Shown: piece by piece, positions 3,384 through 17,500 of the stretch
Layout: each line of letters opens with the position of its first letter
Numbering within the stretch: the stretch's first letter is position 1
Source: Actinidia chinensis
Lineage: Eukaryota > Streptophyta > Magnoliopsida > Ericales > Actinidiaceae
Direction: 5' to 3'
NCBI GenBank assembly: GCA_009663005.1
Contig: CM018908.1
Span: 2,587,501 to 2,605,000 of the forward strand
DNA: 17,500 nucleotides
Notes under the pieces: model-generated
Told to the model about the DNA's origin: nothing
What the model saw: only the letters and a program-made list of their open reading frames with translations
The model's database searches: none
Translations under genes and position numbers: made by a program

Positions 3384-3462
3384 TTCAGGGTGCTTCGTGC
3401 GGATTTTAAATAATTTTACGATGCTGCACTTGGGAAAGCCCTTATTGAGGTTGGCGTTCACA
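3384..3462 (+). repeat. 79-bp repeat, copy 1 (copy 2 at 4202-4281)
   Basis: Begins with CAGGGTGCTTC and contains ATTTTAAATAATTTTA followed by GATGCTGC, AAGCCCTT and TTGAGG. The second copy at 4202-4281 keeps the same order without large indels. In copy 2 the start is TTGCAG|GG, an acceptor-like context that copy 1 (TTCAGGG) nearly keeps. Confidence 0.8.
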
Positions 3463-3469
3463 GTTTTGT

Positions 3470-3600
3470 TTCCCCCCTCCTTTTTAATAATTAATTGTTT
3501 ATGGGTACCAGTTGTTCGGAAGATCCTGAAGATCGATGAGCGCTGTCTTGTTCTTTAATTTGTTTTGATGGGATTCTTGAACCTTTTTTGGTGACCTCTT
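3470..3600 (+). repeat. P-start module, copy 1 (others at 6840-6960 and 11570-11720)
   Basis: Defined by a C/T-rich tract, then GGTACCAGTT or an equivalent, GAAGATCGATGAGC, a T-rich stretch and GATGGGATTCTTGA. The three copies share this order with small indels. Copy 1 has a short internal duplication of the GAAGATC phrase. It marks the start of a recurrent unit of the array. Confidence 0.7.
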
Positions 3601-3807
3601 TCCTGATCTCTTTATGCAGTATTTATTGATATGAGTGGGTATCTTGAATTTTATTGGTATAGTCAATTTCGGGTGAGGCTTCCCTTATCCTTGAATTTTT
3701 AAGGTGAATGCTTAGTATTTCCCCGTCTGTTCGTATCTGTTGTGGACAGGATGTAGCTGGATTGGTACTGGTTTTTATATGATTTGCTGTTTTGTTCTAC
3801 CCATAGC

Positions 3808-3862
3808 AGTTTCTGTTTTGATTCTTTCTTTTGGTGACAGGTACTTTGATGATTAATATGTG
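3808..3862 (+). repeat. GACAGGTAC module, copy 1 (copy 2 at 7130-7193)
   Basis: Shares GTTTCTGTTTT, then TTGGTGACAGGTAC and TTGATGATTAATA, with 7130-7193, about 3.3 kb away. TTTGGTGACAG|GTAC resembles a 3' splice site. TTGATGATT resembles a C box of a C/D snoRNA, but no convincing D box or terminal stem follows. I call it a repeat only. Confidence 0.7.
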
Positions 3863-4201
3863 CATTCCTGTCTTCTTGTTCAGGTTCTAGGTACCATGGT
3901 TCCTTTTTTATTTTTTCACCTTTTCTTTTGATGGCTTCTATTGTTTATTTAAACATGGAGCACTGGTAAATAGCAATTTTGAATTTCATGTGTCTGGTGA
4001 GTGCGGTATCAGGTTTTGCATCTCCTTGAATCTGGACCATCATTTTTTTGTCTTTTATTTTATATTGCAATGGTTGTTGCCCGGTATCCAAAGCATTATT
4101 AGAGCAAGGAGGTTTCTTGAGCTGCCTTATATTTCTATTATTGTAAAGATGTGTTCCATCTGGTTATTGTCATCTTCTTGTCCTCGTTTTTACATAAATA
4201 T

Positions 4202-4281
4202 TGCAGGGTGCTTCTTGTGAATTTTAAATAATTTTATGATGCTGCGTTTTGGTAAGCCCTTTGTTGAGGCTGGAGTTCATA
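4202..4281 (+). repeat. 79-bp repeat, copy 2
   Basis: Partner of 3384-3462, about 818 bp downstream. The shared core ATTTTAAATAATTTTA and the GATGCTGC...AAGCCCTTTGTTGAGG order identify it. It lies within the first large unit of the array. Confidence 0.8.
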
Positions 4282-4441
4282 GGTCCATTTTATTGCTTTG
4301 CTAACTTAAACATAGGGATGGAGGACAGAATGCTTGACGATTCTAGATTAATTATGCCTGGTTTGTTTGTTTCCATCTTTGCATCTCATAACTTGTAAAG
4401 AAACTTGTTTACCTCATTTTTTTTTATTGTTATAGTTTTCT

Positions 4442-15166: not shown

Positions 15167-15361
15167 TTTGGTATACAAAAATGATAGGTATACACCCAAT
15201 TTTTGTACACACCCAGACTCTCTCACCAAAATAGTGGGGTTCGCCCTACAAATACTAATTAGGGCGGGTCCCACTGTGTTTGAGGGCGAGTCCCACTGTG
15301 TTTGTGAGGGCCCCACTTTGTTTGTGAGAGGGTGTGTACCTATCATTGTTCTTTGGTATAC
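15167..15361. mobile_element. Short TIR element (MITE, Mutator-like by target duplication) with 10-bp TSD
   Basis: The element spans 15177-15351. Its termini are inverted repeats: AAAAATGATAGGTATACACCC at 15177-15197 against GGGTGTGTACCTATCATTGTT at 15330-15350, which match at 19 of 21 positions. It is flanked by the direct repeat TTTGGTATAC (15167-15176 and 15352-15361), with one extra C between the right TIR and right flank. At about 175 bp with no coding capacity it is a non-autonomous element. A 9-10-bp duplication is typical of Mutator-like elements, so that superfamily is the best guess. The core holds three imperfect tandem units of 20-24 bp containing GTCCCACTGTGTTTG (15262-15327). 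An open frame crossing it is incidental. Confidence 0.85.
15262..15327. repeat. Internal GC-rich tandem repeat of the TIR element, three units
   Basis: Units are 15262-15283, 15284-15307 and 15308-15327. Each starts GGGC, then has CCCACTKTGTTTG, and ends TGA. They are imperfect copies with shrinking length. The array accounts for the local GC spike. Confidence 0.85.
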
Positions 15362-16007
15362 TATAAGGGAGTGTTATGTGTTGGTTGAGTTTATACTTGT
15401 ACATTATTGGAACTTACGAGCAACTTAATCTCTTGGTATAATTGGTGACTAACATGGTGTCAAGATTTTTGGTTTCTTAAAGACCTTTTGTTACAGTTTT
15501 TTTGTTTGTATGCGTTTTTCGCTTGCTTTTTACCAATATACTTTTTGCATTCTGTATCGTTTCATGTATGTTTGCATCTTCGGTTATAAGATGGAGTTGC
15601 ACTGAGGGAAGGGTGTTGGATATCGTCATTGTTGGACTTATTTTCTAATAGCGCAAGTTTTAGAGGCAATTGGTGCATTGTCACTTCATAGCTCATCATT
15701 CCATCAAAATAGTGCTTGAGTTGCATTTTTTTTGATTTTTTTTATAGCCTTTTGAACAAATATATTATGTATTTGTTGGATCATGATGGTTAAAAATTAA
15801 TTCTATTCTCATTTCAGTGTCTTTTTAGTTAGAAGTTTGTTTGAGATAAGCCATCATAAGCAATGAGAGTTGCATCGATGCACGGCAACTGCAACTAAAT
15901 TTTATGGTGAGCTAACTACCCTGTATTGAAAATAATCCAATTTCTAGTGTGTTAGGTTTATGGAAAGGCATTTTCGCTTGTTTTATATGATGGGAATTTT
16001 TTAAATT
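15362..16007. other. Unassigned AT-rich stretch, no gene
   Basis: No coding frame of substance. It holds the 12-bp palindrome TGCATCGATGCA (15871-15882), nested between AGTTGC (15869-15874) and GCAACT (15885-15890). About 15590-15640 weakly resembles 14137-14170 (GATGGAGxTGCA). Confidence 0.45.
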
Positions 16008-16477
16008 TACAAGTTGCAAGTTCTTAAGACCGGCGATGTTATATGGGATTGAATGTTTGGCAACTAAGAAGCAATATTATGGCTAAAATATGTGTAGCTA
16101 AGATGAAAATATTGAGGTGGATGCATGGTAAGACTAGGGGGATAAAATTAGGAATGTTAACATTCGTGACATGGTAGGAGTTGCACCAATTGAGAATAAG
16201 CTAAAAAAAATAGACTTAGGTAGTTTAAACATATATGCCGTAGGTTTATTGATGTGGTATTAAGAAAAAGTTATATGATTAGTGGGTAATGACACTACTA
16301 AAAGGAGAGGTAAACCTAAGTTAACATTGAATGCAGTAGTAAAAAATGATATGGCTGTTTTGAATCTCAGGGAATATTTGCCCATTGATAGAGCTCAATG
16401 GCGTAAAAGGATTCATGTAACTTACCCCAATTGATTGGGACAAAAAAATGGTTTGGTTTGGTACAAGTTGCAAGTTC
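16008..16477 (+). mobile_element. 5'-truncated LINE with perfect 16-bp target duplication
   Basis: The insert is 16024-16461, flanked by identical TACAAGTTGCAAGTTC at 16008-16023 and 16462-16477. It encodes the decayed C-terminal end of a plant LINE ORF2 (reverse transcriptase protein). Visible pieces in changing frames are RPAMLYGIECLATKK (from 16027); MAKICVAKMKILRWMHGKTR; DKIRNVNIRDMVGVAPI; a RLR.FKHICRRF segment; then RGKPKLTLNAVVKNDM and RAQWRKRIHVTYPN before a TGA (open part 16300-16434). Plant LINE consensus here is LYG.ECWA.K...LRWM.GKTR.DKIRN...GVAPI...RLRWF.H..RR...GRPK.T...W.K.IH..DP. Several frameshifts and stops make it dead. The 3' tail is a short A-run then GGTTTGGTTTGG rather than poly(A), which suggests the RTE clade. 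The loss of the 5' part is the usual outcome of incomplete reverse transcription. Confidence 0.92.
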
Positions 16478-16546
16478 CAGTTCCAGTTCCCTAGCTCATG
16501 TTAGATTATTGTCTTGAAGCATCATGGTTATTCTAGGATTTAAATT

Positions 16547-16711
16547 TCATTGCAATCATTGTATCTTAATATTTGTGGAACAAATTATATTGGTTCTCTC
16601 TCTTGTTCTAACATATATTTGAAATAAGTTCATTGCAATCATTGCATCTTAATATTTGTGAAACAAATTATATTGGTTGTCTCTCTTTTGTTCTAACATA
16701 TATTTGAAATC
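16547..16711 (+). repeat. 83-bp tandem duplication
   Basis: Copies 16547-16629 and 16630-16711 differ at only a few positions. Each runs TCATTGCAATCATTG, ATCTTAATATTTGTG, ACAAATTATATTGGTT, then TCTCTC and TTCTAACATATATTTGAAAT. The low divergence makes this one of the youngest duplications in the window. It begins about 70 bp after the LINE target duplication. Confidence 0.93.
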
Positions 16712-16734
16712 CTAGCCAGATGTCAGACATTTCA

Positions 16735-17207
16735 TTGCTTTATTTGAAACATGAGACCTTGTGAGGCCATAGCTTGACATGCTAATTGTTCTTCTTTGGG
16801 GTTAGTATTGCTGGCACCTAATTCTTGTCGCAACTCTTTTATCTTTTTCTATTTTCTTTCGAGTACCATGTTTTAAGTGTTTTGTTCCTTGTGCGTTTTA
16901 TTTGTGGTAGCCTTCATGCAGCAAGTTGGATTGCAGCAAATTACCAAGGAGTTGAACAGAGAAGGAAAGCTATGCTGTCTTGTTGATTGTTTTGAGTCTT
17001 TTTATTTCTAGTTTTTGTACACTTTCAAGGTTTGTTAGATATCTCTTTACCCAAAGATGAACTAGAGGGCACTTTGTGGCTTGTAGTGCTAGTTTGTTCC
17101 TTTTTTACCTCTTCTCTCCATCTTCCTGCAAGCATCCAAATGCGTTTACTTGTCGATTATAGGTTAGGCCTATTCCTCGCTTTTTGAAGCCGGTGCATTT
17201 GAAGAAG
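16735..17207 (+). repeat. E-prefix module, copy 2
   Basis: Partner of 13190-13644 (CTTGTGAGGCCATAGC, TTCCTTGTGCG, GGATTGCAGCA, TTTTTGTACAC, TTTGTTAGAT, TCTTCCTGCAAGCATCC, ATGCGTTTACTTGTCGATTAT). It shows that the array resumes after the LINE and continues to the right. Confidence 0.72.
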
Positions 17208-17500
17208 TAGCAAATATTGTCGGAGCACCGCTGCCCCCTCTCCTTATTCTCTCTCTTTTTTGTCTTTCCTTCATATTTTAATGTTGCAATTTTACTTCTA
17301 TTGTATAATTGCATGCGCATATATTATAGGTTCAGAATGTTGGACAGAGCTGATACTCGTTACAGTAGTCAGTTGAGTTGAAGAATCTATGTTCCAGAAC
17401 CTTACTTGAGGTTTTCATCTTGTAAGGCCCTAGCACGTCATGACCCCAGAATTGGATTTGAGAAAAGCATGGTAAATGTTGTGCAAGAACATGGTGGAGT
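17208..17500 (+). repeat. A-type module, copy 4, cut by the window end
   Basis: Starts CAAATATTGTCGGAGCACCGC, as at 7411 (AAATATTGTTGGATTGCTCC). It then has CTCTCTCTTTTTTGTC, an ATTATAGG phrase, and CTAGCACGTCATGACCCCAG with GAATTGGATTTGAGAAAAGC and ATGGTAAATGTTGT, matching 7520-7580 and 14420-14480. It is incomplete, so the array extends past 17500. Confidence 0.72.

Follow-up and report, generated by a model that had tools for sequence, protein, structure and literature searches.

The window analysed here is a stretch of 17,500 nucleotides of Actinidia chinensis (contig CM018908.1, C21:2587501-2605000), in which an earlier note made from the sequence alone had described positions 3384-17500 (14117 bases) as an ancient higher-order tandem array with 3.2-3.4 kb units. 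The array reads as four decayed units, U1 from 3.4, U2 from 6.5, U3 from 11.25 and U4 from about 16.5 kb, and lies downstream of a single promoter-like region. The units are built from shorter modules whose names and boundaries (F, A, A-end, C, D, E00, E0, B1, B, G) are our own:

3380-3463, plus strand: U1 module G, with a copy at 4198-4282 (82%)
3466-3884, plus strand: U1 modules A and A-end, with copies at 6839-7215; A also at about 11580-11799
4441-4658, plus strand: nested 109-bp tandem duplication in U1 (95%)
5191-5995, plus strand: U1 modules B1 and B, with a copy at 8246-9360
6494-7215, plus strand: U2 modules F, A and A-end; F-A copied at 11248-11799
7277-8200, plus strand: U2 modules C and D and a second D copy (self-matches, trees of copies)
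8215-9369, plus strand: U2 modules E0, B1 and B (self-matches)
11248-11799, plus strand: U3 modules F and A (self-matches)
12975-15105, plus strand: U3 modules E00, E0, C, D, C and D (self-matches)
16483-17434, plus strand: U4 modules E00, E0, C and D, with an 83-bp doublet in E00 (self-matches)

Read from 3380, U1 runs G, A, A-end, G copy, 109-bp doublet, B1 and B, and U2 from 6494 runs F, A, A-end, C, D, D copy, E0, B1 and B, ending at 9369. U3 has the order F, A, a T-rich dispersed repeat, E00, E0, C, D, C and D (to 15105) and is separated from U4 by an element resembling a miniature inverted-repeat transposable element (MITE-like), by 15351-16000 and by a remnant resembling a long interspersed nuclear element (LINE-like). 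The last detected match in U4 ends at 17434, and the unit is cut by the window edge at 17500.

The window was compared with itself by BLASTN and by nhmmer self-profiles, with local dinucleotide shuffles as the null. At E<=1e-3 BLASTN returned 27 rows, all of them in direct orientation. Within 3380-17500 there were 26 direct and no inverted self-matches at E<1e-3, whereas 100 shuffles averaged 0.02 direct matches and no inverted ones; at the looser threshold of E<1 the counts rose to 35 direct and 3 inverted, where 30 shuffles gave 2.4 and 0.7. The nhmmer self-profiles extend the BLASTN diagonals, and in the interval list merged from both, a partner within the window was detected for 7639 of the 14117 bases in 3384-17500. 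Diagonals run at 3466/6839/~11580 for A, 5333/8534 for B1-B, 6499/11253 for F, 7430/13669, 7417/14324 and 7283/17084 for C-D, and 13199/16745 between U3 and U4. Every offset at which the earlier note had modules recurring, in the same order and on the same strand, was seen, and its proposed self dot-plot, for the part that falls in the window, has its diagonals in those places.

The offsets from U1 to U2 (3055-3445) and from U3 to U4 (3508-3576) agree roughly with a unit of 3.2-3.4 kb, but those from U2 to U3 do not, being 4688-4754 for F-A and 5794-6907 for C-D, where insertions and additional copies of C-D intervene. Tandem sub-repeats are nested within the units, two copies of 109 bp at 4441-4658 and two of 83 bp at 16543-16710, and there are further nested offsets of about 365, 393, 667-744, 803 and 818 bp. 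Between copies in the window, 11-30% of aligned sites differ, the F-A pair of U2 and U3 being the least diverged module pair (Kimura two-parameter distance (K2P) 0.15), and transitions are about as frequent as transversions in 11 of the 15 within-window pairs. The duplication structure is real and old, and the description of an ancient, higher-order, colinear array of few copies is borne out. Satellite DNA, which consists of many near-identical short units, was rejected, since a tandem-repeat scan with periods up to 500 returned six rows at four places with 2 to 3 copies each; the earlier note had likewise set a satellite aside, and the copies are indeed few, long and diverged.

The genome, 638,422,350 bases in 1499 contigs, was searched with five module queries. 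The F-A query matched two places, both in the window, the C-D, B and promoter plus U1 queries matched the window and one other contig (C108) only, and the E-C-D query matched only its own place. These copy counts are lower bounds, as the F-A query missed a copy of F on C108 and the E-C-D query missed known copies in the window. The search is able to find dispersed repeats, because the T-rich sequence at 11800-12960 and the MITE-like sequence at 15170-15360 gave matches on multiple contigs. As far as searched, the modules are confined to two loci.

The following sequences interrupt or adjoin the units:

9370-10735: intervening DNA between U2 and the monooxygenase gene fragment
10736-11252, minus strand: probable flavin-containing monooxygenase (FMO) gene fragment, C-terminal part, an open reading frame (ORF) directly left of the U3 F copy
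11800-12960, plus strand: T-rich repeat inserted in U3, with related copies dispersed in the genome
15177-15350, strand not assigned: MITE-like dispersed inverted-repeat element (self-comparison, folding, genome search)
16020-16450, plus strand: LINE-like remnant (read from the sequence; AT-skew reversal)

Two of these inner pieces are dispersed repeats and a third has the look of a LINE remnant, which could suggest that the array as a whole was built from a transposon family. This is very improbable, as the F-A, B, C-D and promoter-U1 sequences matched nothing beyond the window and C108 and E-C-D nothing but itself (again as lower bounds, from queries of limited sensitivity), without the dispersal over the genome that a transposon would have. 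The earlier note's view that the modules are not a recognisable transposon agrees with this, and the genome-wide search that it proposed found, within its limited sensitivity, no spread to thousands of sites.

The T-rich repeat has 36 genome matches including itself on eight contigs, most of the matches listed lying on C8. It is internally repetitive at about 393-430 nt, and its copies on other contigs are dispersed and locally clustered. The MITE-like query (15170-15360) gave 7 matches including itself on five contigs; the element contains a 22-bp doublet, and its dispersed partial copies lie on the four of these contigs other than its own. The segment 16020-16450, which we take to be LINE-like, resembles a decayed LINE reverse-transcriptase tail with a terminal GGTTTGGTTTGG tract and had no Pfam match in the six-frame scan of 2900-17500 (E<=1). 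The minus-strand fragment 10736-11252 is presumably part of a flavin-containing monooxygenase gene; its PDB match (6wpu_A, E 0.16) is too weak by itself, and Pfam gave no FMO match to the fragment.

C108 is a contig of 40,392 bases and carries a paralogous locus. Window positions 1592-5984 are collinear, with gaps, to C108 14714-21162, which is followed at 21394-22352 by the equivalent of window 7128-7983, the sequence of about 5.98-7.13 kb being missing at that place. Between 23.9 and 26.3 kb C108 holds pieces like window 5115-5195, F, 3891-4191 and 11739-11960. In unrooted module trees, the A-end copies of U1 from the two loci group apart from those of U2 with a support of 1.0, and for C-D the window U2 copy and the C108 copy stand apart from the three other window copies with a support of 0.98. 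The U1/U2 and C-D copies therefore probably split before the two loci did, so that these duplications would predate the separation of the window locus from C108.

The F copies of U2 and U3 are 0.153 apart, and their distance to the C108 copy of F is 0.38-0.39 in MAFFT alignments or 0.24-0.33 in local alignments. The F-A copy may thus be younger than the C108 split, insecurely so given that the promoter-U1 stretch of window and C108 differs by only 0.12-0.16. Because local alignments give smaller distances than whole-module MAFFT alignments (for B, 0.22-0.36 against 0.43), only orders of divergence were used. The U3 copy of F begins at about 11253 and adjoins window 11211-11252, a segment that matches C108 35001-35042; the minus strand of that contig carries an FMO-like domain (PF00743, E 4.3e-6) about 3.5 kb away. 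This points to a single duplication event in which array DNA and the monooxygenase gene piece became joined. The FMO-like domain of C108 is N-terminal (L015 8300-8716, minus strand) and lies beyond the array, and its reading frame looks broken.

The sequence to the left of U1 has the features of a promoter:

2606-2692 (87 nt), strand not assigned: cluster of five Site II motifs (TGGGCY), from a motif count
2925-3072, plus strand: TATA box (CTATAAA, 2925-2931) and presumed first exon, which ends before the GT at 3055 or 3073

Site II motifs are no more numerous in the window than expected by chance (10 against 10.49), but five of the ten fall within these 87 nt (Poisson P about 3e-9 per place, 6e-7 over 200 places). 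C108 keeps the TATA context and both GT sites. The promoter-like region, comprising the Site II cluster, the TATA box and the presumed first exon, is not repeated within the array, as BLASTN found no match to it elsewhere in the window. The exact Telo-box occurs only at 4523, 4632, 9836 and 10385, all downstream of the TATA box, and none lies upstream of the TATA box in the window.

From the presumed transcription start onward the plus strand is T-rich, and such a strand skew is expected of plant introns. The AT skew is -0.27 in U1, -0.26 in U2 and again in U3 (12961-15105), and -0.25 in U4; the F-A piece of U3 has -0.16. Among the inserts, the FMO fragment has a skew of -0.05, the MITE-like element one of -0.10 and the LINE-like remnant one of +0.12. 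On C108 the skew shifts at the matching place, from -0.02 (1-17850) to -0.24 (17930-27000) and back to -0.02 (27001-27500). Strong splice-like sites in 3001-17500 number 7 donors and 12 acceptors on the plus strand and 2 and 4 on the minus strand, scored with matrices of approximate frequencies and with the reservation that T-richness by itself favors acceptor calls. Transcription of the region is probable on these sequence features, and the earlier note's placing of the array inside a probable transcription unit is supported by the single promoter-like region and by a T-rich skew that starts there and is weak or reversed in the FMO-, MITE- and LINE-like inserts.

The array has no recognizable protein domain. 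No Pfam domain was found at E<=1 in the six frames of 2900-17500, nor any in the three plus-strand frames of C108 20001-27500, and three of ten window ORFs matched Pfam weakly, none of them reaching the curated cut-offs; a protein-coding origin was rejected on these results. A unit of this size in tandem order is typical of gene arrays, and each unit might represent a decayed ancestral gene copy, the array being a tandem gene family turned into pseudogenes. Orphan units in Arabidopsis can be missed genes or pseudogenes, according to the tandem-array survey (PMC3464658). Such a descent is distinctly unlikely here, as the promoter is not repeated, no frame holds a Pfam domain and, among the best two matches considered per pair and strand, shared peptides of at least 20 residues are less alike than the DNA (71-79% identical against 86% in the F-A pair), with only shorter peptides of 7-15 residues reaching 80-89%.

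Known RNA families were likewise scarce. Rfam gave four weak matches at E<=5 and none at the gathering score, no tRNA gene was found in the window, and a simple custom scan of the plus strand found 1 C/D-like box arrangement where 1.06 were expected; small nucleolar RNAs (snoRNAs) of the H/ACA type were covered via Rfam and folding energy only. Known structured RNA, C/D snoRNA and tRNA were all rejected as identities of the units. There is no excess of stable hairpins, since z<-3 was reached in 5 of 580 plus-strand windows, two of which are the MITE-like hairpin. The lowest folding z-scores lie at 8701-8850, in the MITE-like element and at 2881-3000. The minimum (-4.36) belongs to 8731-8850, in the B1/B area of U2, which contains a short GGACCC/GGGTCC hairpin.

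Mismatch clustering was assessed by comparing the variance with 500 permutations, for the within-window pairs longer than 150 nt (n = 12) and the window-C108 pairs longer than 250 nt (n = 7). Mismatches are unclustered in 10 of the 12 within-window pairs (a variance as high as the observed one arises in 102 to 483 of 500 permutations), and 4 of the 7 window-C108 pairs look random (169 to 483 of 500). Since duplication, decay of the copies seems to have been mostly neutral.

The mammalian SNORD115/SNORD116 host-gene clusters have one promoter and tandem non-coding RNA units with a C/D snoRNA in each. The window shares the single promoter ahead of tandem non-coding units, but no such snoRNA was detected in its units by Rfam or by the C/D scan. 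Its non-coding region, preceded by a Site II cluster and a TATA box, also resembles that of the snoRNA-type Site II/Telo-box promoter, from which the window differs in having no exact Telo-box ahead of the TATA box and no snoRNA or miRNA family at cut-off. The GUT15/CR20 family of plant long non-coding RNAs (lncRNAs) comprises spliced non-coding transcripts (PMC10226578) and was considered as an identity on that description; a tRNA-like molecule derived from GUT15 is reported in a title that this paper cites, whereas the tRNA scan of the window was empty.

A close likeness is to the "orphan" arrays of Arabidopsis thaliana, to which ReD Tandem assigned 465 of 1,741 tandem arrays (461 in the orphan-array table, with a mean of 3.26 units and a mean unit of 1077 bp; PMC3464658). 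Those arrays too have few head-to-tail units, are detected at the DNA level and cover no annotated gene. The window has alignable direct paralogous segments close together and, as far as its sequence shows, no Pfam domain in 2900-17500 and no Rfam family at the gathering score. It differs from those arrays in its unit of ~3.3 kb against a mean of 1077 bp, its nested sub-repeats and its confinement to one probable transcription unit. The earlier note had held the structure to be explained by no named feature. This is not supported, as long, diverged arrays of few copies without annotated genes are known from Arabidopsis (PMC3464658) and the divergence reads mostly as neutral decay.

We consider it probable that the locus is an ancient tandem segmental-duplication array in the transcribed, non-coding part of a plant gene, either a lncRNA gene or a very long 5' intron region, in which the repeats presumably have no function of their own. 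A segment of ~3.3 kb downstream of the single promoter would have been copied head-to-tail, unequal crossing-over or some similar copying event being the probable mechanism, and then duplicated further in pieces. The array would also have been split and enlarged by dispersed repeats and by the monooxygenase gene piece. The oldest duplications (U1/U2) would probably have preceded the split between the window and C108, and the copies would afterwards have undergone mostly neutral decay.

Several observations speak against parts of this reading. The order of events is not uniformly supported, as the B1 tree has a support of 0.09 and fails to resolve, and the B distances are nearly equal between window U1 and C108 (0.420) and between window U1 and window U2 (0.429). 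The longest window-C108 pair has 112 one-base gaps to 339 substitutions, with 220 transversions and 119 transitions, compared with 72 one-base gaps to 1025 substitutions summed over the 15 within-window pairs; the transversion excess and the many one-base gaps mean that C108 is probably error-rich and its long branches unfit for dating. Only 2 of the 5 clustered Site II motifs are kept in the aligned stretch of C108 (17543, 17582), with one more at 17438. The T-rich repeat is itself skewed (-0.35), as is 9371-10700 (-0.13), so the skew does not single out DNA that belongs to the gene itself. Mismatches are clustered in 2 of the 12 within-window pairs, of which one (5333-5677, 0/500) crosses a stretch with no BLASTN match and the other (12072-12431, 3/500) lies in the T-rich repeat, and 3 of the 7 window-C108 pairs are borderline (18, 24 and 26 of 500). 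Strong donor-like sites, scored with the same approximate matrices, are kept somewhat more often than weak ones (29/43 against 206/405 in the window, 48/71 against 297/515 versus C108), in counts that include overlapping pairs more than once. The same counts for acceptor-like sites hardly differ (23/37 against 111/191, and 37/52 against 255/364). As tests for conserved exons, the splice-like sites and the mismatch clustering gave a weak signal or none. The modules may be under weak constraint.

The error-rich look of C108 and a genome in 1499 contigs could also raise the idea of an assembly artefact. This is scarcely credible, as a false join of one sequence would not give copies with 11-30% of aligned sites different and with near-equal transitions and transversions in 11 of 15 pairs, and U1 and U2 copies have counterparts on C108.

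The only hints that the modules are in use come from the better-kept donor sites, from the three window-C108 pairs with borderline clustering and from the type of promoter. They would fit a functional lncRNA gene whose repeated modules, as exons or intronic small RNAs, work as repeats in the manner of a snoRNA host cluster. Site II promoters are common to snoRNA and ribosomal genes (PMC4660826), a single promoter stands ahead of the tandem array, there is no coding domain, donor-like sites are slightly better kept and the locus occurs twice in the genome. We regard such a gene as unlikely, given that no Rfam match reaches the gathering score, C/D-like boxes are at chance, folding shows so few stable windows, no exact Telo-box precedes the TATA box and divergence is even in 10 of 12 pairs. 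It is distinctly unlikely that a non-coding RNA gene under a growth-linked Site II promoter has lengthened by duplicating its exon-intron modules head-to-tail, again and again, with weakly constrained repeats as its working part.

Among the matches listed, no literature on this locus was recognised. The window is a clear example of tandem duplication that is old and that stays inside a single probable transcription unit, and through the paralogous locus C108 some of the duplications can be placed in a time order. If this is a true RNA gene, it would be a useful case of how such genes lengthen in plants; otherwise it would be ordinary genome wear.

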